From contig JAAVFI010000076.1 of assembly GCA_014800815.1 (NCBI GenBank), positions 1-40,682 on the forward strand: 40,682 nucleotides of DNA, given 5' to 3'. Made by a program: the position numbers and the translations under genes. The stretch comes from Bacteroidales bacterium. GTDB taxonomy: Bacteria > Bacteroidota > Bacteroidia > Bacteroidales > Muribaculaceae. The notes under the pieces were generated by a model. That model searched no databases, was not told where the DNA came from, and saw only the letters and a list, made by a program, of their open reading frames with translations. Numbering within the stretch: position 1 is the stretch's first letter; each line of letters opens with the position of its first letter. This document shows positions 7,103 to 30,936 of the stretch, in pieces.

Positions 7103-8497
7103 TTACCGCTGTGAGGCGGCAGCAATGTCGGCGGCAAGGCGTGGCACGCTGAGGCTGAGGTCGCCGGCGCCTGCCGTCAAAAGGATTTCAAAGTTACGAT
7201 TTTTCATTGTCTCGACAAAATCTTCTTTCGCAATCATCGACTTATTTTGATTTTTTATAAGGTCGAAGATTGTTTTGGAGCTGATTCCGGGAATAGGCTC
7301 CTCTCTTGCGGGGTAGAGATCGGTGAGAATCACTTCGTCGGCAAGGTCGAGAGCGGCGGCGAATTCTGCCGCAAAATCGCGTGTGCGTGAGTAGAGATGC
7401 GGCTGGAAGGCCACTGTGAGACGACGGCCGGGGTAGAGGGCGCGCACCGATTCGATGCTGCGGCGCAGCTCGTCGGGGTGGTGTGCGTAGTCGTCGATTA
7501 TGGCGCGTCCGTGCGGTCCTTTTTCCTTGAGGTGGAACTCGAAGCGGCGCTCTACGCCGGGGTACGACGCCATGGCCGAGCGGGCGAGCTCGGGGGTGAG
7601 GGTGCCGGTGAGCCATACGGCGGCGAGGGCTGCCACGGCGTTGTCGACATTTACATCGACGGGTACGCCGAGTTCGATATTGTCGATACGACCGCCGGGA
7701 TATACGAAGTCGAAGAACATCGAGCCGTCGGCGGTGCGCACGTTGTCGGCATGGAAGTCGCCGTCGGTGCGTCCGAAGTAGTGTACCTTGACGCCTTCGG
7801 CAGGACGCGGCACAAGCTTGAGGCCTGTGCGGAGAAGCAGGTGGCCGTCGGGGCGGATGAGCTCGGTGAAGTGCGCGAAGCTCTCAAGATATGCCTCCTC
7901 GGTACCGTAGATGTCGAGGTGGTCGGGATCGGTGGCGTTCACCACAGCGATGTAGGGCGTGAGCTGGTGGAAAGAGCGGTCGTATTCGTCGGCCTCGAGC
8001 ACGCTCCAGGGGGAGTCGGCGCTGAGTATGAGGTTGCTGTCGTAGCCCTTGAGGATGCCTCCGAGGAAGGCGTTGCAGCCCACGGCACCGCTGTGCATGA
8101 TGTGCGCGGCCATCGACGATGTGGTGGTCTTGCCGTGAGTGCCCGAGAAGCAGAGGCTCTTGGAGTCGCGGGTGATCTGACCGAGGACGTAGGCGCGTTT
8201 GCGCACTTCGAAGCCATTGTCGCGGAAGAAGGAGAGGGGGATGTTGGTGGCGGGTACGGCGGGAGTGTACACCACGAGGGTATCGGCGGGGTCGCGGAAG
8301 TCGGCGGGGACGGCATCCATGGAGTCGTCGAAGCTGATTACAGCTCCTTCGGCCGCGAGTTCGTCGGTGAGATGCGAGGATGTGCGGTCGTAGCCTGCTA
8401 CGGCGAGGCCGCGGGAGAGGTAGTAGCGGGCGAGGGCGGCCATACCTATGCCGCCTATGCCTGCGAAATATACTTTACGGAAGTTTGCTTTTTCCAT
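7103..8497 (-). CDS. murC: UDP-N-acetylmuramate--L-alanine ligase MurC
   Basis: 464-residue cytoplasmic Mur ligase adding L-Ala to UDP-MurNAc, the first step of stem-peptide synthesis. The N-terminal UDP-binding Rossmann segment is VYFAGIGGIGMAALA (9-23). The ATP P-loop is SGTHGKTTTSS (118-128). The middle domain has VLEADEYDRSF, and the C-terminal domain has VERRFEFH and DDYAHHPDE, the latter characteristic of MurC. Length is normal. It sits 21 nt after murG and 13 nt before ftsQ, the usual dcw order. Confidence 0.97.
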   Translation of the reverse strand: MEKANFRKVYFAGIGGIGMAALARYYLSRGLAVAGYDRTSSHLTDELAAEGAVISFDDSMDAVPADFRDPADTLVVYTPAVPATNIPLSFFRDNGFEVRKRAYVLGQITRDSKSLCFSGTHGKTTTSSMAAHIMHSGAVGCNAFLGGILKGYDSNLILSADSPWSVLEADEYDRSFHQLTPYIAVVNATDPDHLDIYGTEEAYLESFAHFTELIRPDGHLLLRTGLKLVPRPAEGVKVHYFGRTDGDFHADNVRTADGSMFFDFVYPGGRIDNIELGVPVDVNVDNAVAALAAVWLTGTLTPELARSAMASYPGVERRFEFHLKEKGPHGRAIIDDYAHHPDELRRSIESVRALYPGRRLTVAFQPHLYSRTRDFAAEFAAALDLADEVILTDLYPAREEPIPGISSKTIFDLIKNQNKSMIAKEDFVETMKNRNFEILLTAGAGDLSLSVPRLAADIAAASQR

Positions 8498-8518
8498 TGC
8501 TTGTCGGTTGGTTGGATA

Positions 8519-9679
8519 TTAAGCTTCTGCGTGGGCGGCGTTGACAGTCAGCGCTATCTGGCGTACTATGGCGGCGTCGCTGTCGCGCAGGGCGAGGCTT
8601 GAGATATTCTCGCTCAGGAGGCGGAGAGTCTCAGTATTCTCTATTATAGTGCAGATGTCGACCCAGAGTCTGCTGCCGGCATCGGCGTCGAGCACCATGT
8701 CGGCGGCGCCGCGCGAGGCGAGGGCTTCGGCATTGTGGCGCTGGTGGTCTTCGGCGACGTTGGGCGACGGCACGAGTATTGCGGGCTTGCCGAGGAGCTC
8801 GAGCTCGCTGATAGTGCCTGCACCGGCACGGGCTACCACGAGGTCGGCGGCGCAGTAGGCCGTTGCCATGTCGGAGATGAAGTCGGTGAGGATGATGTTG
8901 GAGGGGAGAATGCCCTCTACAGCTTCCTGACAGCGCTTGTGGTCGGCACCGCCGCATTGCCAGAGCAGGTCGAATTTCACTTTTCCGGCGTCGCCGCTGC
9001 GGATTACCTGTATCATGGCTTCATTGAGCGAGCGGGCTCCGAGACTGCCGCCTACGATAAGCACCATAGGCCGCTTGCCGCTGAAACCGAGGCGCTTGCG
9101 GGCCTCAGTGCTGTCGCAGTCGGGCTCGAGGAGGGCCTTACGCACGGGGTTGCCGGTCATCACTATCTTGTCGGCGGGGAAGAAACGCTCCATGCCGGGG
9201 TAAGCCACGCATATCTTGGAGGCATGGCCGGCGAGGAGTTTGTTTGTGACGCCCGCGAATGAGTTCTGCTCCTGCAGGAGGGTGGGTATGCCGAGCTTCT
9301 GAGCGGCCTTGAGGGTGGGGCCGGAGGCGTAGCCGCCGACACCTACGGCGATGTCGGGCTTGAAGTCGCGCACTATGCGTCGGGCCATTCGTACACTCTT
9401 GAAGAGTTTTATCAGCACGCCGAAATTACGCCATAGCCTGCGGCGGTCGAAGCCGGCCACGGGCAAGCCGAGGATGTCGTAGCCCGCTTCGGGCACGCGA
9501 CGCATCTCCATGCGGTTTTCGGCACCGACGAAGAGTATCTCGGTGCCGGGGTAGGTGCGCTTCAGAGCGTCGGCTATCGACAGTGCGGGGAATATGTGGC
9601 CTCCCGTGCCGCCTCCGCTGATTATCACGCGAAGGGGGCGGTTGAGTTTGAGGGGGATTATGGTGCTGTTTTCGGACAT
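8519..9679 (-). CDS. murG: UDP-GlcNAc:undecaprenyl-PP-MurNAc-pentapeptide GlcNAc transferase MurG
   Basis: 386-residue GT28-family glycosyltransferase that turns lipid I into lipid II at the inner face of the cytoplasmic membrane. The donor/acceptor loop SGGGTGGHIFPALSIA (about 21-36) is exact, and GVGGYASGPTLKAA and LQEQNSFAGVTNKLL are typical of the N domain. The C domain has VGGSLGARSLNE and VARAGAGTISELELLGKPAILVP. About 15 residues at the N-terminus precede the fold; a slightly later start is possible but no better ATG is visible. It is 18 nt from ftsW. Confidence 0.97.
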   Translation of the reverse strand: MSENSTIIPLKLNRPLRVIISGGGTGGHIFPALSIADALKRTYPGTEILFVGAENRMEMRRVPEAGYDILGLPVAGFDRRRLWRNFGVLIKLFKSVRMARRIVRDFKPDIAVGVGGYASGPTLKAAQKLGIPTLLQEQNSFAGVTNKLLAGHASKICVAYPGMERFFPADKIVMTGNPVRKALLEPDCDSTEARKRLGFSGKRPMVLIVGGSLGARSLNEAMIQVIRSGDAGKVKFDLLWQCGGADHKRCQEAVEGILPSNIILTDFISDMATAYCAADLVVARAGAGTISELELLGKPAILVPSPNVAEDHQRHNAEALASRGAADMVLDADAGSRLWVDICTIIENTETLRLLSENISSLALRDSDAAIVRQIALTVNAAHAEA

Positions 9680-9697
9680 GGCTGTAAGTGTTTGTTT

Positions 9698-11008
9698 TTA
9701 TGCTTCAACAACTTCGGCTATCGACGGGTTTACGCTTCGGGTCTCTTCGGGCAAACTATTATGCTCGAGTTTCTGCTCGGCGGGGGTGTCGGTGACGCGT
9801 ACGGCGTGCCTTGCCACGCTGAGCATGACACCGAAAGCCATAGATGTGGCTATCACCGATATACCGCCTTTGGAGATGAGCGGGAGCGGCTGACCCGACA
9901 CGGGAAATACGCCCGATACGATAGCCATATGGTAGAGTGCCTGGAAGACTATGACGAAGGCACAGCCCATGACGAGGATGCCCGGCATCGTCTGCCGGAA
10001 GCGCATGGTGAGTTTGGCACTTCGCCCGAGTATCCACATATACACCACAAGGATGCCGAGGCCGACAAAGAGGCCGAGCTCCTCGATGATGATAGCGAAG
10101 ATGTAGTCGGAGAAAGCGAGGGGCAGACGGGCGTTCTCGCGTGAGCGGCCTACGCCTACGCCGAAGAGACCGCCGTGAGCCTGCGCTATGTAGCTTAGCT
10201 GCTCCTGCTGGTGCTCGGTGGAGAATTTGTCGAGGTGCTTGTCGCCGCGGAAATGCTGCTTTACGCGCTCGCGCCACACATTGCCTCGGCCGTCGGCGCG
10301 GGCTGTCTCGCCTTCGCCGTTGAGAGCTATCACGCGTTCCTGCTGAGGGGTGAGTTTCACGTCGCTCTTGAGCTGAGTCTTGAGGCCGATAGCTATGCCT
10401 CCGCAGAGTACGCCTATGGCTACGGCGATGCCGAATTTCTTAAGCCCCATGCCGCCGATGAGCATCATCGAGTAGCAGATGCACACCACTACAATGGTGT
10501 TTGAGAGGCCTTGAGAGAAAAGCAGCAGGGCGCAGATGCCCATAAATCCCATGCACATCCAGAGGCCGCGCTCGGTCACGTCGCGCCGTCCTTTCACCTG
10601 ATTTCGGGTGAGAATCCAGGCCATGCCAAGAGCGGCACCGAGCTTCATGAACTCGGCTGGGAGCACCGGCACACCCATGATGCGGATGGCGCGCATGGCA
10701 CCGTTGACTTCCGTGCCGACTATTCGCACGGCAAACATCAGGCCTATGCAGAAGAATACGAATACGGGTATCATCCTGTAGATATGCCTGTAGTGTATGT
10801 GCTGGAGTATGAGCATGATGAGCAGACCTGCGGCTATGAAGTAGCCGTGGCGGATTACGGGCGTGAATATAGAGCCTACCGTCACTTCCTGTATCGAGGC
10901 CGAGAAGAGCTCGATGACAGCTACGATTACGAGCAGGATATAAGTACCCCAGAGGTGGTGGTCGGTGCGCTTTTTGCGCACGGGAGTGGCAGAGAGAGCG
11001 GAGTCCAT
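9698..11008 (-). CDS. ftsW: SEDS-family peptidoglycan glycosyltransferase FtsW
   Basis: 436-residue polytopic membrane protein. SEDS proteins polymerise lipid II into glycan strands together with a class B PBP, here the ftsI product. About ten hydrophobic helices are visible. Family motifs are PVLPAEFMKLG (cytoplasmic/periplasmic loop region), the long periplasmic loop ending SYIAQAHGGLFGVGVGRS, the FSDYIFAIIIEELG segment with the conserved acidic residues, and LPLISKGGISVIA. The last has SKGG where proteobacterial FtsW often has S(Y/S)GG. It lies between murD (15 nt) and murG (18 nt). Confidence 0.96.
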   Translation of the reverse strand: MDSALSATPVRKKRTDHHLWGTYILLVIVAVIELFSASIQEVTVGSIFTPVIRHGYFIAAGLLIMLILQHIHYRHIYRMIPVFVFFCIGLMFAVRIVGTEVNGAMRAIRIMGVPVLPAEFMKLGAALGMAWILTRNQVKGRRDVTERGLWMCMGFMGICALLLFSQGLSNTIVVVCICYSMMLIGGMGLKKFGIAVAIGVLCGGIAIGLKTQLKSDVKLTPQQERVIALNGEGETARADGRGNVWRERVKQHFRGDKHLDKFSTEHQQEQLSYIAQAHGGLFGVGVGRSRENARLPLAFSDYIFAIIIEELGLFVGLGILVVYMWILGRSAKLTMRFRQTMPGILVMGCAFVIVFQALYHMAIVSGVFPVSGQPLPLISKGGISVIATSMAFGVMLSVARHAVRVTDTPAEQKLEHNSLPEETRSVNPSIAEVVEA

Positions 11009-11023
11009 TAGAGGTGAGTGTTG

Positions 11024-12430
11024 TTAAGAGTTGAGAGTTTCTTTTTCTTCAGAATCCTTCAGGGCGAGTACGGCGGCTTTGAATTGGCGGCCGCGGTCTT
11101 CGTAGCTCTTGAAGAGGTCGAAGCTGGCGCAGCAGGGCGAGAGAAGCACGGTGTCGCCGTCGGTGGCGAAGCTGCGGCAGGCCTCGATTGCATCGGCAAG
11201 GCTGTGGCAGTCGGCCATGAGGGGGACGTGGGGGCCGAAAAATTCCATGATTTTGGCGTTGTCCTTACCCATAGCCACGATAGCCTTCACCTTCTCCTGC
11301 ACCAGAGGCAGAATTTCGGAGTAGTCGTTGCCCTTGTCCTTGCCGCCGAGGATGAGGACGGTAGGAGTCGTCATGGCTTCGAGGGCATAGTAGCAGGAGT
11401 TTACGTTGGTAGCCTTGGAGTCGTTTATCCAGCGCACGCCGTCGATGTCAGCAGTGAATTCGAGTCGGTGCTCCACGCCGCAGAAGTCGGAGAGGGCCTC
11501 ACGGATATCGTCCTTGCTCACATCGCAGAGGCAGGCCGAAAGGCCGGCGGCCATGGAGTTGAATACGTTGTGAAGACCGTTGAGAGCGAGGTCGGCGCGG
11601 GGCATGCTCATAGAGGTGCCCGGAGTATTGAAAATAAGCTGATTTTCGGCGTCGATATAGGCAGCCGAACCTTCCTCATAGTACTCTGAGAAGGGCAGCA
11701 TGCGTGCCGCGGTGCCCACCTTGGCGAGCTGTGCCGAGATTATGGGGTCGTCTTTCCAGAAAATGAAAGAGTCGCTCGCCTCCATATTGCGGAGAATGCG
11801 GAATTTAGCCTTCACATAGTTCTCCATTTTATGGTCGTAGCGGTCGAGGTGGTCGGGGGTGATGTTGAGGAGTACGGCGATGTCGGCCTTGAACTCGTAC
11901 ATGTTGTCGAGCTGGAAACTGCTGAGCTCCACTACATATACAGCGTGAGGTTCGCGCGCCACCTGGTAGGCGAGACTCATACCTATATTGCCTGCCAGCG
12001 AGGCGTCGATGCCCGCATGGCGCAGAATGTGGTGGGTGAGCATGGTCGTGGTCGTCTTGCCGTTCGAACCGGTGATACACACCATTTTAGAGTCGGTGTA
12101 CCGGCCTGCGAACTCTATCTCGCTGATGATAGGAATATTCTTGGAGCGGACAGCTTCCACTACGGGTGCGTCGAGGGGGATGCCGGGGCTTTTCACCACT
12201 TCGTCGGCATCGAGAATACGCTCCATGGTGTGGCCGCCGTCTTCGAAGGCTATACCTTCTTCTATAAGGCGGTCGCGGTATTTGGGGGCTATAGAGCCTG
12301 AGTCGCTGAGGAATACGTCGAATCCTTTGTCTTTGGCGAGCACAGCGGCGCCGAAGCCGCTTTCGCCCGCACCGAGTACCACAAGGCGTTTAGTGTTTTC
12401 TTTCATATCTTGACGGGTACGGATTGTCAT
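11024..12430 (-). CDS. murD: UDP-N-acetylmuramoyl-L-alanine--D-glutamate ligase MurD
   Basis: 468-residue Mur ligase that adds D-Glu to UDP-MurNAc-L-Ala. The N-terminal dinucleotide-type fold begins RLVVLGAGESGFGAAVLA (15-32), the P-loop is TGSNGKTTTT (120-129), and ITPDHLDRYDH and WINDSKATNVNS are family motifs. The ATG at 12430 overlaps the mraY stop as ATGA, favouring translational coupling. A second ATG at 12406 (MKENTKRLVVLG) would give a start nearer to that of relatives, so the true N-terminus could be eight residues shorter. Order mraY-murD-ftsW is standard. Confidence 0.96.
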   Translation of the reverse strand: MTIRTRQDMKENTKRLVVLGAGESGFGAAVLAKDKGFDVFLSDSGSIAPKYRDRLIEEGIAFEDGGHTMERILDADEVVKSPGIPLDAPVVEAVRSKNIPIISEIEFAGRYTDSKMVCITGSNGKTTTTMLTHHILRHAGIDASLAGNIGMSLAYQVAREPHAVYVVELSSFQLDNMYEFKADIAVLLNITPDHLDRYDHKMENYVKAKFRILRNMEASDSFIFWKDDPIISAQLAKVGTAARMLPFSEYYEEGSAAYIDAENQLIFNTPGTSMSMPRADLALNGLHNVFNSMAAGLSACLCDVSKDDIREALSDFCGVEHRLEFTADIDGVRWINDSKATNVNSCYYALEAMTTPTVLILGGKDKGNDYSEILPLVQEKVKAIVAMGKDNAKIMEFFGPHVPLMADCHSLADAIEACRSFATDGDTVLLSPCCASFDLFKSYEDRGRQFKAAVLALKDSEEKETLNS

Positions 12431-13674
12431 CTGATTTTCAATGTAACGAAGGTAATGGCGGCAAGAATTATGCCGATAATCCAGAAGCGTGTCACGATTT
12501 TCTGTTCGGGGATAGCTCTGCCCGGACTCTGGATGAGAGCGTCGACCACACCGGCATCTTTCTGGAAGTGGTGGTGGAGAGGCGTCATCTTGAATATGCG
12601 TTTGCCGCCGGTGCGCTTGAAGTAGGCCACCTGGATTATTACCGAGAGGTCTTCAATATAGAAGAGACCGCAGAGGATAGGCAGCAGCAGCTCCTTGCGA
12701 ATGAGTATGGCGAATACGGCTATCACACCGCCGAGCATAAGGCTGCCCGTGTCGCCCATGAATACCTGGGCGGGCGAAGCGTTGTACCACAGGAAGCCGA
12801 CGAGCGCCCCTACGAACGCCGCCATATACACCACCAGCTCCTCGCTGCCCGGCACATACATTATATTAAGGTAGGAGGAGTAGATGATGTTGCCTCCGAG
12901 ATAAGCCATGACGGCGAGCGCCGTGCCCGCTATAGCCGAGAGTCCGGCAGTCATGCCGTCGAGACCGTCGTTGAGGTTGGCACCGTTGCTCGTGGCCGAT
13001 ACGAGGAAGATAGTGATGAAGAAGAATACTATCCAGCCCCCGGTCTCGGCATGGTCGCCGAGCCAGCCCGTAATCCACGAATAGTTGAAGTTGTTGTCCT
13101 TGACAAACGGTATGGTGGTCTGGGGCGACTTCACGGGGGTGTCTTCATAGATTACCTCTTCCACGCGGTGAGTCTCGGTGCTTATCACCTCGCTGTTTTC
13201 CACAATGGTCATCGAAGGGCTGAGGTACATGGTCATGGCCACGACTACGGCGATGCCTACCTGACCTATGATTTTGTATTTGCCCTTCATGCCGTCCTTA
13301 TTGTGCTTGCGCAGCTTCAGATAGTCGTCGAGGAAGCCGATAGTGCCGAGCCAGAGAGTGCTCACAAGCATCAGTATCATGTATATGTTGCCGAGGTTGC
13401 CCACGAGGAGGCAGGGTATGAGGATAGCCGCCATGATGATGAGGCCGCCCATGGTCGGGGTGCCCGTTTTCTTGAGCTGACCTTCGAGCGAGAGGTCGCG
13501 GACAATTTCGCCGATCTGCATCTTCTGCAGACGGCCTATGATGCTCTTACCGGCGAAAATCGCCACAAGGAGGGCGAGTACGAAAGCCGCACCCGAGCGA
13601 AATGTTATGTAAGTCATCAGGCGGGCTCCGGGGAAGTCGCCGCTCTGAAGCAGGGTGAACAGTGAATAAAGCAT
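12427..13674 (-). CDS. mraY: Phospho-N-acetylmuramoyl-pentapeptide transferase MraY
   Basis: 415-residue polytopic enzyme that moves phospho-MurNAc-pentapeptide from UDP to undecaprenyl phosphate, forming lipid I. Catalytic motifs: the first aspartate pair region GFLDDYLKLRKHN, LNDGLDGMTAG, MGDTGSLMLGG, and the histidine cluster PLHHHFQKDAG. Well-studied MraY proteins are about 325-360 residues. The extra length is a loop of about 45 residues at roughly 155-205 with little similarity to those enzymes, as in other Bacteroidota. It is 32 nt downstream of murE and overlaps murD by 4 bp. Confidence 0.96.
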   Translation of the reverse strand: MLYSLFTLLQSGDFPGARLMTYITFRSGAAFVLALLVAIFAGKSIIGRLQKMQIGEIVRDLSLEGQLKKTGTPTMGGLIIMAAILIPCLLVGNLGNIYMILMLVSTLWLGTIGFLDDYLKLRKHNKDGMKGKYKIIGQVGIAVVVAMTMYLSPSMTIVENSEVISTETHRVEEVIYEDTPVKSPQTTIPFVKDNNFNYSWITGWLGDHAETGGWIVFFFITIFLVSATSNGANLNDGLDGMTAGLSAIAGTALAVMAYLGGNIIYSSYLNIMYVPGSEELVVYMAAFVGALVGFLWYNASPAQVFMGDTGSLMLGGVIAVFAILIRKELLLPILCGLFYIEDLSVIIQVAYFKRTGGKRIFKMTPLHHHFQKDAGVVDALIQSPGRAIPEQKIVTRFWIIGIILAAITFVTLKIR

Positions 13675-13706
13675 CTCTATGATTCTTTTTTCGGAAATTC
13701 TACAGA

Positions 13707-15197
13707 TTAGAGACCGGCTTCGGCAAAGGCCTTGCGCACTTCCTCGCGGTCGTCAAAATGGAATTCGGTGTTGCCGATTACCTGAGTGGTCTCATGGCCC
13801 TTGCCGGCAAGAAGGATGATATCGCCCGGCTTTGCCAGCGCCACGGCACGACGGATAGCGGTGCCGCGGTCGGCGATGCGCTCCACACGGTCAGCGTAGG
13901 CGGGATGAATACCGGCATACATCTCCTCGATGATAGCGTCGGGGTCTTCGCTGCGGGGGTTGTCGCTGGTGAGAATCACCACCGAACTGCGTTCGGCAGC
14001 AGCGGCACCCATGAGGGGCCGCTTGCCGCGGTCGCGTTCGCCGCCCGCACCGCAAACGGTGATTACGCGGGAGTCGCCGGAAACATTCGATATAGTGTCG
14101 AGGACGTTGATGAGGGCGTCGGGAGTGTGGGCGTAGTCGACAATGGCGGTGATGCCGTTGGACGAGCGTATAGGTTCGAAGCGTCCGGCCACGGGCACGA
14201 GGCGGCTCATGAGCGGGAGCACTTCCTCGCGGGGGATGCCGAGCAGGAGGGCCGCACCGTAGACTGCCGCGAGATTGGATGCGTTGAAGTTGCCGGCAAA
14301 CATTGTCTCCACTTCATCGCCGTCGAACTCAAGGAGCATGCCGTCGATGCGGTCGTGGATCAGACGCACGCGGTAGTCGGCAAGGTCGCGCAGACTGTAG
14401 GTGGCGCGGCGAGCGGCAGTGTTCTGGAGCATTACGGCACCGTTGCGGTCGTCGGCGTTGACCAGTGCGAAGGCATCGGCAGGGAGGCCGTCGAAGAACG
14501 ATTTCTTGGCCTTGAGGTAGGCGTCGAAAGTTTTGTGATAGTCGAGGTGGTCGCGTGTGAGGTTGGTGAAGATACCTCCGGCGAAAGTAAGACCTGCTAT
14601 GCGCTTCTGGTCGGCGGCATGGCTGCTCACCTCCATAGAAGCGAAAGTGCAGCCGGCATCTACCATGCGGCGGAGAAGTCGGTTGAGCAGCACGGGGTCG
14701 GGCGTGGTGTGGTCGGCAGGGATGCACTCCGAGTCTATGCAGTTGCACACAGTGGAGAGCAGACCCGCTTTGTGTCCGCGCATACGTGCCATTTCATAGA
14801 GCAGAGTGGCGATAGTGGTCTTGCCGTTGGTACCGGTGACGCCCACGAGAGTGAGTTCGTCGGAGGGGTCGCCGTAGAATCGTGAGGCGAGCAGGCCCAG
14901 AGCCTCGCGGGTGTCGGCAACCTTGTAGAAGGTCACACCGGCGGGCATGTCGGCAGGAAGTTCTTCGCATACAATCACCGAAGCACCGGCTGCGATAGCC
15001 TTGTCGATGAAGCGGTGGCCGTCGACGGCCACACCGCGAACGGCTACGAAGAGTGCCCCGGGACTTACTTCGCGTGAGTCGGCAGTGACGAGAGTCACCG
15101 CTGAAGATAAGTCGGGGGTGCCGACTGTTTCCAGTGGTTTTATAGCGTCTGCGAGGGCTTCGAGGGCGCACTCGCGCTTGTCATTGTCGGTAGTCAT
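13707..15197 (-). CDS. murE: UDP-MurNAc-tripeptide ligase MurE (meso-DAP type)
   Basis: 496-residue Mur ligase adding the third stem-peptide residue. The P-loop is GVTGTNGKTTIAT (119-131). The substrate-selecting motif is D412-N-P-R-S-E-D-P; DNPR is the established signature for meso-diaminopimelate, against forms ending in other residues for L-lysine. The peptidoglycan of this organism is therefore expected to be the DAP type. The N-terminal domain has TADSREVSPGALFVAVRG. It starts 5 nt after the ftsI stop. Confidence 0.97.
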   Translation of the reverse strand: MTTDNDKRECALEALADAIKPLETVGTPDLSSAVTLVTADSREVSPGALFVAVRGVAVDGHRFIDKAIAAGASVIVCEELPADMPAGVTFYKVADTREALGLLASRFYGDPSDELTLVGVTGTNGKTTIATLLYEMARMRGHKAGLLSTVCNCIDSECIPADHTTPDPVLLNRLLRRMVDAGCTFASMEVSSHAADQKRIAGLTFAGGIFTNLTRDHLDYHKTFDAYLKAKKSFFDGLPADAFALVNADDRNGAVMLQNTAARRATYSLRDLADYRVRLIHDRIDGMLLEFDGDEVETMFAGNFNASNLAAVYGAALLLGIPREEVLPLMSRLVPVAGRFEPIRSSNGITAIVDYAHTPDALINVLDTISNVSGDSRVITVCGAGGERDRGKRPLMGAAAAERSSVVILTSDNPRSEDPDAIIEEMYAGIHPAYADRVERIADRGTAIRRAVALAKPGDIILLAGKGHETTQVIGNTEFHFDDREEVRKAFAEAGL

Positions 15198-15202
15198 TAT
15201 TG

Positions 15203-17392
15203 TCAGTTATGTCTTAGAGTCAGTTTGATTTTAGTTCCCGGCGAAGCCTTGGTACCGGCTTCGGGTGTCTGTTCGGCCACATATCCCACGCCGTTGAAGT
15301 CTACGGCATATCCCGCGCCTTCGAGAGTAGAGAGAGCCTCGCGCAGTCCCACACCCTTCACGTCGGGTACGGTGCCGTATTGCTTGTGCTCGGCCGGACG
15401 GCGTATAGCGTGAGTCTTGCCCAGCCCGAGGTCGGAGTGCAGAGTGGCGTTGCGCTCCGAGTTGAACGACGAGTACACCGTCGGGGTAGATACACCCTCA
15501 CGCTTGGCTTCGGCGAAGTATGGGTCGTCGGAGAGCATGCCGCGGGCATAGAGCTTGAGGGCGACGTTTTTGAGCACCATGCCCGAACTTACCGCCGGTC
15601 CGCGATAGGGCACCTTGGGGTCGCTGATGAGCACTATGCAGGTATATTTGGGATTCTCGTAGGGGAAGAAGCCGCAGAAAGTCACGCGGTAGTGTCCCTC
15701 GAGATAGCCGCCCTTGAAGGGAGGCAGGTCTAATTTCTTGCCGTTCTTGTCGAAGCGCGGACGGCGGTCTTCGAGCGCAATCTTGCATGTACCCGTCTTG
15801 CCGGCAATCTCCACGACGTCGTTCTTGAGCACCTTGGCCGTGCCGCCCTGCTCCCATACCACGCCGCGCATCATCTTGCGGAGTATCGCGGCGTTTTCGG
15901 GGCTCATCATCTGCTCGCGCACATAGCTTACGGGGATTACGGAGTCGACGCCATCGGGGGTGCGCAGACCCTTGACGAGTCGCGGGCGGACAAACTTTCC
16001 GTCGTTTGCCACGGCGTTGTAGAACGCGCAGGTGTAGAGCGGCGGAATCATAGTGCAGTAGCCGAATACCATACGCGAGAGGTCGAGCTTGCCGCCGACA
16101 TTATTCTTCACCTTGGGGAAGTAGGGTATGCGCTCGCGTGCTATGCCGGTATTGAAGCGGTCGAAGAATCCGAGTTCGGCAAGGTCGCTGCGGAAGCGGT
16201 TGAGGTCGCCGTCGTAGTGAGGCATGGTCATCTTCACCATACCGATGTTCGACGAATACTCTATGAAGCGGCTGATCGGGAGAGACGCCGGCGAGTGAGT
16301 GTCGGAGATGCTTCGCTTACCCAGGTAGGGGAAGCTGTGGCCGATAGGGAACTCGCGGGTGACTGGTTTGCCGAAACCTTTCTCGAGCGCCACCGCCATG
16401 GTCATCACCTTCATCACCGAACCGGGTTCGTAAGCCTCGACGGCGCGGTTGAGAGCCTCGATGTAGCGGGGTGTGCGCGACGTTGAATCGCGCTCGAGAT
16501 TCGATATGGCCTTGATGTCGCCCGTGGCCACTTCCATGATAATGGCCGTGCCCCAGTCGGCATGCGAGGCTATGAGCATCTCGCCGAGTTCGGCCTCGAG
16601 GATATCCTGGATAGTGATGTCGATAGTCGTGGTCACGTCGTAGCCGTTGATTGCCGGAGTCTCCGTGGCAAGACGTGTGCCGCGGGTCGACACCACCTTA
16701 CGGCTCACACCGGGTACGCCGAAGAGCAGCGTGTCGAGGGCGCGTTCGAGACCGCTGCGGCCGTGTACCTCAGGGTCGGTCTCGGTCTGGCCCACACGGC
16801 CGATACTCAGTCGGGCCATGCGACCGAAGGGATATGAGCGCTTCATCACGCGGTCGCCCTTGAGGCCCGTGCAGTTGCTGTTGTTGTATCCGCGGAAGAA
16901 GGGGAAAGTCTTTTTCACTTTCAGGAATATCTCGTCGGGTACCGCCTTGGCGATGACGAAATTTCGTGTACGCTTCGACTTGGGCGGGTCTACGGCGGCG
17001 CGCAGACGCTTCTCCCACTTGTCGCGGCTGTAGCGGGGGAAGTACTTGGCGAGAGAGTCGGAAAGCTGGGGTATCGAATCCACGAACTCTGCAATCTTGA
17101 ATCGCGAAGCTCTGAAATCGACGAAGATGTCTACGTAGTAGAGATTCGTGGCGAGAATCGAACCGTCCGACGCCAGAATCTCGCCGCGCTCCGGGTAGGT
17201 AATCGCCGAGTCAGCGAGGGTTGAGGCCGCCATGCGGTTCCAGTCGGAGGCATGTATCACCGTGGTGCGCACGAGCATCACGGCAATGGCAATAGCGAGA
17301 ACGGCGGTAATCATGAAGATGATACCGAAGCGTCCTACAAGGAATGCGTGATTTGGACTTACTCGTTCGTCCGGTCGTTTGGGTGTGCTCAT
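15203..17392 (-). CDS. ftsI: Septal class B penicillin-binding protein (FtsI) with C-terminal PASTA domain
   Basis: 729-residue transpeptidase that crosslinks septal peptidoglycan. A short cytoplasmic part is followed by one membrane helix (about 21-42), then the dimerisation/pedestal domain. The transpeptidase active site is S325-V-M-K328, S380-S-N382 and K532-T-G534. The last about 57 residues (673-729), starting GTVPDVKGVGLREAL, form one PASTA domain, as in Spo-VD and Gram-positive PBP2x relatives and in other Bacteroidota FtsI. The Mg-independent mechanism and its SEDS partner FtsW are known for the family. It is placed 27 nt after ftsL and 5 nt before murE. Confidence 0.96.
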   Translation of the reverse strand: MSTPKRPDERVSPNHAFLVGRFGIIFMITAVLAIAIAVMLVRTTVIHASDWNRMAASTLADSAITYPERGEILASDGSILATNLYYVDIFVDFRASRFKIAEFVDSIPQLSDSLAKYFPRYSRDKWEKRLRAAVDPPKSKRTRNFVIAKAVPDEIFLKVKKTFPFFRGYNNSNCTGLKGDRVMKRSYPFGRMARLSIGRVGQTETDPEVHGRSGLERALDTLLFGVPGVSRKVVSTRGTRLATETPAINGYDVTTTIDITIQDILEAELGEMLIASHADWGTAIIMEVATGDIKAISNLERDSTSRTPRYIEALNRAVEAYEPGSVMKVMTMAVALEKGFGKPVTREFPIGHSFPYLGKRSISDTHSPASLPISRFIEYSSNIGMVKMTMPHYDGDLNRFRSDLAELGFFDRFNTGIARERIPYFPKVKNNVGGKLDLSRMVFGYCTMIPPLYTCAFYNAVANDGKFVRPRLVKGLRTPDGVDSVIPVSYVREQMMSPENAAILRKMMRGVVWEQGGTAKVLKNDVVEIAGKTGTCKIALEDRRPRFDKNGKKLDLPPFKGGYLEGHYRVTFCGFFPYENPKYTCIVLISDPKVPYRGPAVSSGMVLKNVALKLYARGMLSDDPYFAEAKREGVSTPTVYSSFNSERNATLHSDLGLGKTHAIRRPAEHKQYGTVPDVKGVGLREALSTLEGAGYAVDFNGVGYVAEQTPEAGTKASPGTKIKLTLRHN

Positions 17393-17419
17393 CAGTATGC
17401 TGAGGGGAGATAAGACATG

Positions 17420-17758
17420 TTATTTTGCAACTACTATCTGCGGTCGTCGGTCGGGAATCGCCAGACCGAGGTGGAGCGAATCCACAAGATGAATCATGGC
17501 CGACTCGCGGGTGAGGGTCATGTAGAGCGAACGTTCCTTCTGTTTCTCGGTGCTCATCACGTTTATCTGGTGCGTGAGGCGGTCTACGGTATTCTGGCTT
17601 GTGGCGCACTCGAAGCGGAGGGCAATCATGGCTATGCATCCCATTACCACAAAGGCAGTGGCGAAGAAGTGCTCCATGAAGAACTTGCTCGATACGGCGT
17701 CTCCCTGAATGATGGCGCGTATGCTTCCTCCGATTTTAGGCAATAAGTTTTTGAACAT
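17420..17758 (-). CDS. ftsL: FtsL-like divisome protein
   Basis: 112-residue bitopic protein. A basic N-terminus of about 30 residues is followed by one membrane helix (about 31-47, FFATAFVVMGCIAMIAL) and a periplasmic segment with heptad-like character (TVDRLTHQINVMSTEKQKERSLYMTL), then SAMIHLVDSLHLGLA. This is the FtsL layout: short, one helix, then a coiled coil that pairs with FtsB/DivIC and FtsQ. The family is too divergent for motif proof; the assignment comes from topology plus the position between rsmH (21 nt) and ftsI (27 nt). Confidence 0.85.
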   Translation of the reverse strand: MFKNLLPKIGGSIRAIIQGDAVSSKFFMEHFFATAFVVMGCIAMIALRFECATSQNTVDRLTHQINVMSTEKQKERSLYMTLTRESAMIHLVDSLHLGLAIPDRRPQIVVAK

Positions 17759-17779
17759 ATCGGGTAGGAGAGTAGAGTG

Positions 17780-18691
17780 TTAGAGTTTTTCGGCAGCACG
17801 GAGTTTAGCGCTTCGGCTGCGCGGGTTTGCTTCAGTCTCGGCCTCGTCGGGCACCACAGGTTTCGAGCCGAGGGGCTTGAGGGGTGCGTCGGAGCGGCCG
17901 AAGATATCTTTTTCGGCCTCGCCGTCGATACGACCGCTGCGCATGAAGTTTTTCACCATGCGGTCTTCGAGCGAGTGGTAGGTGATAATGGCGAGACGGC
18001 CTCCGGGCTTGAGCACGGTCACGGCCTGACGGAGAAAGGCCTCGAGAGCCTCCATTTCGCCGTTGACCACTATGCGCAGCGCCTGGAAAATCTGGGCGAG
18101 CTCCTTCTTCTGCTTCGCCGGACTCACGAAGCGCGACACCACCTCGACAAATCGGCCCGTAGTGTCGATAGGGCTCTTTGCCCTTTCGGCCACGATAGCC
18201 TGCGCGAGTTTGCGTGCCTGCTTGAATTCACCGTAGATTTTGAAGATGCGGGTGAGCTCGTCGGCGTCGGCCTCCGCCACGATGTCGGCTGCCGAGCGCG
18301 ATGCCGAGGCATTCATGCGCATGTCGAGCGGGCCGTCGGCGCGGAACGAGAACCCGCGCGAGGCATCGTCGAAGTGGTGCGACGATACGCCGAGGTCGGC
18401 GAGGATGCCGTCCACCTTGCCCGTGATGCCGAAGTAGTCGGTATAGTTCTCCAGATAGCGGAAGTTTCCGTGCACCGGAGTGAAGCCTTCCGAGGCCTCG
18501 GCCCGGGCTATCGCGTCGCTGTCCTGGTCAAGAGAATACAGGTGCCCGTCGGCACCGGCAATTTCGGCAATGGCGCGGCTGTGGCCGCCTCCGCCGAGGG
18601 TGGCGTCGATGTAGATGCCCCCGGGATGTACGTCGAGGGCCGCAATACTTTGCGGCAGAAGTGCCGGTGTGTGATAAAACTCTTGGTCCAT
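17780..18691 (-). CDS. rsmH: 16S rRNA (cytosine(1402)-N(4))-methyltransferase RsmH (MraW)
   Basis: 303-residue SAM-dependent enzyme that methylates N4 of C1402 in the ribosomal P site. The N-terminus EFYHTPALLPQSIAAL is typical, the SAM-binding motif is YIDATLGGGGHSRAI (27-41), and DGILADLGVSSHHFDDASRGFSFR carries the family core. The C-terminus LAIITYHSLEDRMVKNFM is also diagnostic. It is the first gene of the division/wall cluster here; the usual upstream mraZ is not present. RsmI, which adds the 2'-O-methyl group on the same nucleotide, is coded at 28595-29350 in this window. Confidence 0.97.
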   Translation of the reverse strand: MDQEFYHTPALLPQSIAALDVHPGGIYIDATLGGGGHSRAIAEIAGADGHLYSLDQDSDAIARAEASEGFTPVHGNFRYLENYTDYFGITGKVDGILADLGVSSHHFDDASRGFSFRADGPLDMRMNASASRSAADIVAEADADELTRIFKIYGEFKQARKLAQAIVAERAKSPIDTTGRFVEVVSRFVSPAKQKKELAQIFQALRIVVNGEMEALEAFLRQAVTVLKPGGRLAIITYHSLEDRMVKNFMRSGRIDGEAEKDIFGRSDAPLKPLGSKPVVPDEAETEANPRSRSAKLRAAEKL

Positions 18692-18744
18692 AGCTGGTTA
18701 GCGATACATTCGCGATTGAGGTATGCGGGTCGGTTTTCGGAGTT

Positions 18745-18777
18745 CAAAATTACTATTTTTCCGCCGTAATTTACATA
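18745..18777 (-). promoter_or_regulatory. Candidate promoter of the rsmH-to-yggS gene run
   Basis: Minus-strand -7 element TAATTTTG (18752-18745) matches TAnnTTTG exactly. A three-of-four -33 match, TATG (18777-18774), lies 21 nt upstream. The predicted transcript starts near 18739, leaving a leader of about 48 nt before rsmH. It is the only plausible promoter I found for the 16 minus-strand genes, since all later gaps are 32 nt or less. Confidence 0.5.
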
Positions 18778-18930
18778 TCGAAACCATAAAACTTTTGTCT
18801 TTTTAAGAAAAAGTTATCAACATTATTATAAAAAGAGCCGCGGGCGCCATTCCCGAGTGTTTACAATTGCAAACTTTTCCGCCCTTCGCAGCCTCCCTCA
18901 ACTCCAATTCAAGCCCGGCCGAAATATTTT

Positions 18931-29379: not shown

Positions 29380-30237
29380 ATGAGAAAATTAATCATCCCG
29401 CTTCTCTCGGTTGCTCTCCTCTTCGGAAGCTGTACCGACAAAGAAAAAGAACAGCAGGAACGCGAGCAGGCCGAAGCTTCAAAGGCTGAACTCATCGCCG
29501 CTGTGGCTGACCGCGACCAGCTTCTTACACTCGTCAACGAAATTTCGTCAGGAATGGAGCAGATCAAGCAGCTCGAGAACATCCTCACCGTTTCGGGCGG
29601 AAACGAAACTCCCGGACAGAAAGCTCAGATTCAGGCCGACATCGCTGCTATCCAGAAGACTCTTCAGGAGCGTCGCGAAAAACTCGAGGAACTCGAGAAA
29701 AAGCTCGCTTCGTCGTCAAAGCAGAACTCAGCCCTCCAGCAGACCATTACCTCGCTCCGCTCCCAGATTGACTCTCAATCGCAGGAGATAGCATCTCTCC
29801 GAGGCAACCTCTCCGACGCTACAGCTCGTATCGGTTCGCTCGACGCTGAGGTAGACTCTCTCAACACTGCCGTAACTCAGGTGACCGCCGAGCGCGATTC
29901 TGTAGATATGCAGAAGACTCAGCTCGCCAACGAACTCAACCTCTGCTACTATGCAATCGGCACGAAGGCTGAACTCAAAGACAACAAAATCATAGAGACC
30001 GGCTTCCTCCGCAAGACCAAGCTCATGAAGGGCGACTTCGACCGCACATTCTTCACCGTAGCCGACAAGCGCACCCTCACCACTATCGACCTCAACTCCA
30101 ACAAGGCCGAGGTGCTTACAAACCAGCCCGCCGGCTCTTACGTGATTTCCGAAGGCAACGGCCACAAGGTGCTCCGCATCACCAACCCCGCAGCATTCTG
30201 GAGCCTCAGCAACTACCTCGTTATCAAAATCGACTGA
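29380..30237 (+). CDS. Coiled-coil lipoprotein, Cbp1-like
   Basis: 285-residue predicted lipoprotein with signal peptide ending LFGSC (lipid-modified C18). Residues about 20-180 form a long coiled coil with strong heptads (IQKTLQERREKLEELEKKL, and later QIDSQSQEIASLRGNLSDA). The C-terminal globular part begins at about 187 with LNLCYYAIGTKAELKDNKII and includes ETGFLRKTKLMKGDF and VISEGNGHKVLRITNPAAFWSLSNYL. This end resembles proteins that databases call Cbp1-family collagen-binding adhesins of Bacteroides; the adhesin role is not shown by sequence alone, and a plain envelope spacer or structural protein is as likely. It is the last normal-composition gene before the AT-rich insert. Confidence 0.8.
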   Translation: MRKLIIPLLSVALLFGSCTDKEKEQQEREQAEASKAELIAAVADRDQLLTLVNEISSGMEQIKQLENILTVSGGNETPGQKAQIQADIAAIQKTLQERREKLEELEKKLASSSKQNSALQQTITSLRSQIDSQSQEIASLRGNLSDATARIGSLDAEVDSLNTAVTQVTAERDSVDMQKTQLANELNLCYYAIGTKAELKDNKIIETGFLRKTKLMKGDFDRTFFTVADKRTLTTIDLNSNKAEVLTNQPAGSYVISEGNGHKVLRITNPAAFWSLSNYLVIKID

Positions 30238-30263
30238 TAGCATCAGTCCGACAAAAATACTTT

Positions 30264-30303
30264 TATAGCGAAAACTTGCCGATATCGGCAAGTTTTCGCT
30301 ATA
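30264..30303. repeat. Perfect 40-bp palindrome
   Basis: Positions 30264-30283 (TATAGCGAAAACTTGCCGAT) are the exact reverse complement of 30284-30303, with no unpaired centre. As RNA it would form a long hairpin that could end transcription of the lipoprotein gene, but no T-run follows on the plus strand. As DNA it is a candidate dimeric operator. The 10-mer CTTGCCGATA in the left arm (30275-30284) occurs a third time at 30328-30337, 5 nt before the next start codon. Confidence 0.9.
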
Positions 30304-30307
30304 TTTG
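30275..30307 (+). promoter_or_regulatory. Promoter of the caspase-like gene, overlapping the palindrome
   Basis: The -7 element TATATTTG (30300-30307) matches TAnnTTTG exactly and shares its first four bases with the palindrome end. The -33 element CTTG (30275-30278, three of four) is 21 nt upstream, inside the left arm. Transcription should start near 30313, giving a leader of about 30 nt. A protein bound to the palindrome would cover the promoter. Confidence 0.6.
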
Positions 30308-30327
30308 CACTATATTCACCAATAATT

Positions 30328-30337
30328 CTTGCCGATA
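30328..30337 (+). repeat. Third copy of the palindrome half-site next to the start codon
   Basis: CTTGCCGATA at 30328-30337 repeats 30275-30284 and the inverted copy at 30283-30292. It lies downstream of the predicted transcription start and 5 nt before the ATG at 30343, where bound protein or RNA pairing could affect expression. Confidence 0.7.
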
Positions 30338-30342
30338 ATACT

Positions 30343-30912
30343 ATGAGAAAAGGAATAATCTGCCTTGAGACAGGCGAATTTGAAAAATATCGAACCGAAG
30401 ATCAATTTAAAGCTCAGCCTCTTCTTGAATTTATGAAGCAGGCAAAGATAATAGATGATTATATTTATAGGCAAATAGCTACTCGACAAGAGCTTGAATA
30501 TTATCTAAAGAAGATAGGGGATAAGCATTATCTTAATAAATATGGCGTAGTTTATTTCAGTTTCCATGGTGAACCTGAAAATATCTGCCTCTCACAGAAT
30601 GGGAAAAACAATGTTTCCTTTGAGGATATTGCCGAAATGGTAGCTCCATACGATTCTTTTAAAGATCGCCATATTCATTTTAGTTCTTGCGAAACATTAA
30701 ATTGCGAAGACGCTGTAATCAAACAATTCAAGAGAAATACGGGCGCTAAATCTGTGTCCGGGTATACTGAAGAGGTTGATGTTGTTGGGGCGTTTATAAA
30801 TGAACTCGCCTACTTTCATCAGATCTTCTCTGATTGGACAATGTATACTGTGAAAAAGCACATGTCAGACTATCAGAAGCAACTCTGTAAACTCGGATTC
30901 ACAATACTGTAA
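30343..30912 (+). CDS. Small caspase/CHAT-fold-like protein (DUF6642-like), AT-rich
   Basis: 189-residue soluble protein, no signal peptide or membrane helix. Two segments suggest a clan CD (caspase/CHAT) cysteine peptidase: VVYFSFHGEPENICLS with H75-G76 at the end of a beta strand, and HIHFSSCETLNC with C116, also at the end of a strand. The spacing and strand-His-Gly...strand-Ser-Cys layout, plus the following GAKSVSGYTEEVD, match my memory of DUF6642 proteins. Peptidase activity is inferred. Hand-counted G+C over 30361-30900 is about 37% (199 of 540), against 57-60% in sampled lines of the genes on both sides, and its codons end in A/T far more often, so recent acquisition is likely. It stands alone, with its own promoter and a terminator-like repeat at its end. 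What it cuts or senses is unknown. Confidence 0.75.
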   Translation: MRKGIICLETGEFEKYRTEDQFKAQPLLEFMKQAKIIDDYIYRQIATRQELEYYLKKIGDKHYLNKYGVVYFSFHGEPENICLSQNGKNNVSFEDIAEMVAPYDSFKDRHIHFSSCETLNCEDAVIKQFKRNTGAKSVSGYTEEVDVVGAFINELAYFHQIFSDWTMYTVKKHMSDYQKQLCKLGFTIL

Positions 30913-30915
30913 AGA

Positions 30916-30936
30916 ACAGAATAAGGCTTATTCTGT
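30916..30936. terminator. Short bidirectional hairpin between convergent genes
   Basis: ACAGAATAAG (30916-30925) and CTTATTCTGT (30927-30936) are a perfect inverted repeat around one base. It starts 4 nt after the stop of the caspase-like gene and spans the stop codon of the minus-strand thioesterase gene. No T-run follows in either direction, so termination would be modest. Confidence 0.45.

Follow-up and report, generated by a model that had tools for sequence, protein, structure and literature searches.

A DUF6642 gene of foreign composition in a Muribaculaceae contig, its predicted caspase/CHAT-like product, and a branch of the family without the His-Cys dyad

We analysed a window of 40,682 nucleotides (the whole stretch of contig JAAVFI010000076.1, positions 1 to 40,682 of the forward strand, assembly GCA_014800815.1) from a Bacteroidales bacterium of the Muribaculaceae, and in it a single gene of the Pfam family DUF6642. 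A preliminary description had singled this gene out as solitary, AT-rich and foreign, and had likened its product to caspase and CHAT peptidases. It is indeed solitary, as its neighbours encode a coiled-coil protein and an acyl-ACP thioesterase. The gene and its putative catalytic codons are as follows.

30343..30912, + strand: DUF6642 gene, encoding a putative caspase/CHAT-fold cysteine peptidase of 189 aa (open reading frame, PF20347 match, predicted fold)
30565..30567, + strand: CAT codon for H75, the putative catalytic histidine, which closely follows strand E67-73 (model and alignment)
30688..30690, + strand: TGC codon for C116, the putative catalytic cysteine, which follows strand E110-113 (model and alignment)

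Composition, predicted fold and His-Cys dyad

The open reading frame begins with ATG. It is compositionally foreign to the window, a claim supported by its G+C content of 36.3%, against 57.1% in the rest of the window, and by third positions of 34% G+C, against 64-73% in the seven other window genes computed. When compared with Pfam, the protein matched PF20347 (DUF6642) at 75.7 bits (cut-off 27; E 4.7e-21; profile positions 3-179 of 182), which bears out the resemblance proposed in the preliminary description. Searches of NCBIfam and PADLOC with the window protein gave no meaningful match, and PDB sequences returned three matches, all at chance level (E 0.79 and above).

The structure predicted for the protein (predicted local distance difference test score, pLDDT, 90.1) has the caspase-type alpha/beta fold of clan CD, as seen in its structure matches to caspase and CHAT proteins. 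All 189 residues align, over the full length, to one protease-like domain, without the SAVED domain that serves as cyclic-nucleotide sensor in SAVED-CHAT. The His-Gly motif (H75-G76) and the Cys motif (S-S-C116) lie where they had been described, each after a core strand and in clan CD order. Outside one family-level group (f47), which we take to be Flavobacteriaceae, H75 is kept in 67 of the 67 alignment rows that reach the position and C116 in 68 of 68, these rows being 53 loci from a GTDB scan, 6 same-family copies, 8 same-order copies and the window copy. Since the scan pattern ended in that histidine, conservation of H75 is circular within the GTDB set; the cysteine lay outside the pattern. 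Both dyad residues are present in 14 of 14 of the same-family and same-order copies, which were fetched with the Pfam model and one of which has the same sequence as L116 (loci are designated by L numbers). The window protein itself retains H75, C116, G76, S115 and T118; it is divergent (end branch 1.01 in the tree described below) and has F at position 13, where W occurs in 63 of 66 rows, window included.

We regard a caspase/CHAT fold with a conserved dyad as very likely, and there is good support for calling the protein a caspase/CHAT-like peptidase. Its relationship to CHAT and caspase is based on the fold, the motif and weak matches of family members, and not on strong sequence similarity: three of 54 DUF6642 members matched PF12770 (CHAT) weakly (best E 0.0022), and one matched PF00656 (p20 model, E 5.6e-4). 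The best viral fold match of the model was A0A8S5MXG5, an uncharacterised myovirus protein of 320 aa (E 1.9e-8, TMq 0.75), whose E-value is better than that of any PDB match of the model but comes from a different library.

The Flavobacteriaceae branch of DUF6642

Unexpectedly, DUF6642 splits in two: one branch is mobile and likely active, and the other lacks the dyad. We did not find this split described. The branch that lacks the dyad accounts for 28 of the 30 Pfam-model matches in the phylum sample, all from Flavobacteriaceae, and so masks the likely active branch. None of these 28 copies has H75 or C116, and six different letters occur at each position. Thirteen more full-length Flavobacteriaceae copies likewise have neither residue, which brings the count to 0 of 41; they were drawn from 22 matches, of which six were already in the set and three (L183-L185: one fragment, one with stops and one below the cut-off) were left out.

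At 23 positions 80% or more of the other rows have the same residue, and seven of these (13, 73, 74, 75, 115, 116 and 118) are kept in at most 4 of the 28 Flavobacteriaceae sequences; they comprise the two motifs of the active site and a residue that follows the first strand. The remaining 16 conserved positions are largely retained, eleven of them in 28 of 28 sequences and five in 18 to 27. E9, considered as a specificity residue, is invariant (66 of 66 rows); it was dropped as a diagnostic because all 28 Flavobacteriaceae copies without the dyad retain it in the same alignment. In a quick tree built with the active-site columns removed and a midpoint root (78 of 96 rows, without L119, L137, L138 and near-duplicates), the Flavobacteriaceae form one side of a single branch with a Shimodaira-Hasegawa-like approximate likelihood ratio test (SH-aLRT) value of 100. 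The placement of the window gene is not firmly supported, its branch of 17 having an SH-aLRT of 93, below the star line.

The Flavobacteriaceae branch has the pattern of a pseudo-enzyme, an apparently dead enzyme that has been kept. DUF6642 exceeds the cut-off in 20 of 199 Flavobacteriaceae genomes, about one per genus, and none of its neighbour clusters is common to more than 8 of 28 loci; because of this low frequency and the few common neighbours, a long vertical descent of the branch is not shown.

Distribution, mobility and local context

The DUF6642 gene was present in none of 48 other genomes of the same genus, in 7 of 397 genomes of the family and in 11 of 393 genomes of the order (own genome included in the last two counts), and the seven family copies are scattered over several separate places in the tree. 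The GTDB loci belong mostly to Bacteroidota, with others in Acidobacteriota, Cloacimonadota, Thermodesulfobacteriota and Fibrobacterota and one in Brevibacterium. Since the distribution is patchy, vertical inheritance is disfavoured, and the counter-case raised in the preliminary description, vertical inheritance with AT-rich codons throughout the family, did not materialise. Nor did the other two raised there, as the predicted fold agrees with caspase and CHAT and both H75 and C116 are conserved in homologues, save in the one Flavobacteriaceae branch. AT-richness is not a strong family trait: the DUF6642 gene averages 2.7 points below the G+C of its locus and is lower in 40 of the 53 GTDB loci. 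Within the window gene's own tree branch it lies below the locus in 17 of 17 rows, the margin being about 2 points or less for L164 and L165.

Relatives of the gene have moved among Bacteroidales by horizontal transfer, from family to family, alone or in small cassettes. A 2.8-kb block with 93% identity, carrying DUF6642, a 212-aa gene and a PAD_porph deiminase-like gene, is common to L149 and L168, which belong to two families. L106 has just the DUF6642 gene in common with these loci (82-83%), and its DNA common with L168 (9991-10574) ends at the gene borders (9995-10567). Moreover, in six Dysgonomonas or Prevotella loci (L120, L123, L124, L125, L128 and L132) a tyrosine recombinase of the phage-integrase family lies directly upstream and shares 4 nt with the start of DUF6642; the L120 copy of this recombinase is split into two frames. 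These pairs have a contiguous block of about 1.3-1.7 kb in common, apart from L120/L124 (6.5 kb) and L125/L128 (2.7 kb), and the six loci mostly differ in their immediate flanks. The recombinase-DUF6642 pair may be a very small mobile element. L162 has DUF6642 and part of the leader region, without the recombinase, and the window copy has neither companion (recombinase or deiminase-like gene). Overall, it is highly probable that DUF6642 is a mobile accessory gene. In a plasmid search the sole relative was a distant one from Brevibacterium (25% identity); a gene with the annotation 'abortive infection family protein' is located about 1.3 kb away from it.

Recurrent neighbours of DUF6642 are common mainly to close relatives. 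The deiminase-like gene adjoins two different DUF6642 branches in a tight, operon-like arrangement (L148, 1350-3384; L149, 8555-10607, and L168, 8981-11009); it is adjoined by AbiH in L148, and a remnant of the same deiminase stands beside DUF6642 in L147. Defence or toxin neighbours include HsdM with GmrSD (L091), AAA_15 with DUF3226 (L106), a YhcG nuclease (L087), a zeta toxin (L089) and AbiH (L148); the 20 neighbours behind this list were chosen by eye, so that these are examples and not a rate. In L091 (Algoriphagus, 7581-18873) DUF6642 is found directly upstream of a run of HsdM, GmrSD and HsdM-like genes, and the gene upstream is, by eye, presumably a WYL-type regulator. Other relatives, like the window copy, lie among unrelated genes.

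The remaining features of the window locus are listed below.

30264..30303, no strand assigned: perfect palindrome of 40 nt in the spacer that separates DUF6642 from the upstream gene (RNA fold z -7.99)
30300..30308, + strand: TATATTTGC, possible Bacteroidetes-type -7 promoter element, read from the sequence
30916..30936, no strand assigned: short inverted repeat (21 nt) after the stop codon, a weak end signal (z -1.05)

The end signal described earlier stood only in part: the inverted repeat after the stop codon is present, but it folds barely better than shuffles, and the strong hairpin lies instead upstream, at the palindrome. The latter is perhaps the terminator of the upstream gene or an operator. 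Its inner 34 nt are single-copy in the genome, and its decamer CTTGCCGATA recurs at 30328-30337. In the closest relative, inspection by eye did not show the palindrome in the DNA downstream of the corresponding gene. The promoter described earlier rests on TATATTTGC, a putative Bacteroidetes-like motif. The upstream gene (29380-30237) encodes a coiled-coil protein with none over the cut-off among 25 of 117 families; the product is lipoprotein-like, and the gene occurs in 43 of 48 genus-sample genomes (own included), with second copies in several.

In none of the 29 other genus loci examined, several of which are cut by contig ends (23 further upstream-gene matches lay outside the sample), did the thioesterase appear within 1.5 kb of the upstream gene, and the best matches of the two genes fell on different contigs, which are fragments, in 36 of 36 other genomes having both. 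In the closest relative (G041) the blocks flanking 30238-30927 are likewise on different contigs. The DUF6642 gene therefore lies at a rearrangement junction, where an insertion cannot be told apart from a rearrangement. A search of the window genome for the gene next after the upstream gene in G041 came back empty, although such an empty result shows nothing.

Proposed role, alternatives and known systems

Our preferred and moderately probable interpretation is that the window gene encodes a small, single-domain accessory cysteine peptidase of the caspase/CHAT type, most likely a stand-alone stress or anti-phage effector. That the protein is an active peptidase appears likely; a role in immunity or stress is put forward more tentatively, at slightly under even chances. 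The protein is probably cytoplasmic and of clan CD. H75 would polarise C116 for attack on a peptide bond of a cellular or phage protein. Since there is no fused sensor, activity would presumably be controlled by dimerisation, by expression or by a protein encoded elsewhere, and the peptidase would most likely act alone, as other CHAT or caspase-like proteases do.

Several results weigh against this interpretation. Across the 53 loci there was no constant partner or sensor and no constant antitoxin-like partner, and no PADLOC model matched any of the 54 DUF6642 members below E 0.002. Nor was there clear defence enrichment: 144 near proteins matched 89 PADLOC families and 148 far proteins (>5 kb away on the same contigs) matched 80, in a rough comparison (E up to 1e-15) that counts families and not proteins, with 25 families listed per set. 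The near set came from 45 loci with 162 proteins, 18 of which were dropped (all near proteins of L088, L092, L094, L098 and L126), leaving 40 loci; the far set was a seeded random 148 of 174 proteins, part of them belonging to loci whose near proteins had been dropped, and the design is blind to a whole contig rich in defence genes. With no constant partner, no PADLOC match and no clear enrichment, the immune-effector role is one that we infer. The earlier suggestions of an immune or stress protease, or of the effector of a sensor encoded elsewhere, are plausible but are not shown by these results, and the near/far comparison gives no clear sign of a location of homologues in defence islands. 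As regards the sequence, the window protein matched neither PF12770 nor PF00656 (Peptidase_C14) at Pfam E up to 10, and a search of PDB sequences with the family profile gave no match up to E 10. Among the members, unrelated families rival the CHAT scores, namely Herpes_glycop_H (0.0026, two members), Pox_VLTF3 (0.0058) and BA_2335-like (0.0071, five members), and C13 (0.1) and C25 (0.073) score more weakly than CHAT. A search of 50,697 phage records gave no sequence relative, and neither did pattern scans of IMG/VR, which distant relatives could escape. We know of no DUF6642 protein with peptidase activity. A phage origin was rejected on the phage and IMG/VR searches; the close viral fold match A0A8S5MXG5 exists nonetheless.

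The same active peptidase might instead have a housekeeping or regulatory substrate, such as an anti-sigma factor or an antitoxin, its patchiness reflecting a mobile accessory trait. This is the less likely course, although the window gene and several relatives do lie between unrelated core-looking genes; by eye, the starts of the neighbouring genes in L086 resemble folP, cdaA and tolQ/exbD, and the neighbour in L166 resembles valyl-tRNA synthetase. The near/far comparison agrees with such a role, and a prokaryotic caspase homologue that cleaves an antitoxin has been described (PMC7935541). However, absence from nearly all close relatives would be unusual for regulation of a core process, and some relatives adjoin AbiH, HsdM/GmrSD, YhcG or zeta toxin genes.

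It is rather unlikely that the gene is cargo of small mobile elements and aids the element (by addiction, competition or rival exclusion) and not the host. The recombinase that overlaps the DUF6642 start in six loci with mostly short common blocks, the three-gene cassette in two families and the L106/L168 DNA ending at gene borders all fit such cargo, but the window copy has no adjoining recombinase, its upstream palindrome is single-copy in the genome, and a constant antitoxin-like partner is lacking. Least probable, and by some distance improbable, is that the window protein, as in the Flavobacteriaceae branch, serves as a caspase-fold scaffold and is not catalytic; the existence of that branch, the divergence of the window protein and its F at position 13 point that way, whereas the retention of H75, C116, G76, S115 and T118 points the other. 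For the family as a whole, the members of DUF6642 could conceivably be caspase-like executioners of a new kind, about 185 aa long, mobile, stand-alone and without a sensor, that occur in several phyla; the Flavobacteriaceae branch would then be a pseudo-caspase in which the dyad was lost a single time and which persisted as a decoy, inhibitor or binding partner of such proteases. We consider this wider proposal doubtful. A Pfam family without a function becomes, with this analysis, a testable protease family.

No paper on DUF6642 by name was found in the literature searched, whose coverage excludes most subscription papers. SAVED-CHAT of type III CRISPR (PDB 8tl0) is CRISPR-linked, whereas the window protein is the protease-like domain alone, at 14% identity. 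TPR-CHAT, or Csx29, of Craspase (type III-E CRISPR) has a TPR region, whereas the window protein is a single domain without TPR; the window gene has no directly adjoining CRISPR gene, type III-E genes not having been searched for elsewhere in the genome. Among the matches listed, metazoan caspases (caspase-3, -4, -6, -7, -8 and -11) show 8-14% identity to the window protein. Tce1, a type VI secretion cysteine protease (PDB 9qpe, 178 aa), is similar in size and fold (TMt 0.58), but neither of the genes directly beside the window gene is a secretion or immunity gene. Borvo is a single-gene system. A table in PMC10952713 lists Borvo with a PF12770 CHAT protease as a defence system; the 54 DUF6642 members have no PADLOC match, Borvo's inclusion in PADLOC being unchecked and the sequences not directly compared. 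The literature matches listed for CHAT and caspase-like proteases include CRISPR-linked CHAT proteases, orthocaspases and Borvo, and no title or opening of an abstract among them names DUF6642. Orthocaspases and pseudo-orthocaspases (PMC6426788) are comparable, being proteases of bacteria that have a caspase fold and a His-Cys pair and for which an inactive branch has been published; they are a different sequence family, the window protein having no PF00656 match, and pseudo-orthocaspases show Tyr/Ser where the Flavobacteriaceae DUF6642 branch shows many letters at both dyad positions. To the question of how caspase-fold proteases work without a fused sensor, DUF6642 contributes an example from bacteria, in which a likely active and an apparently inactive branch form a clean pair.
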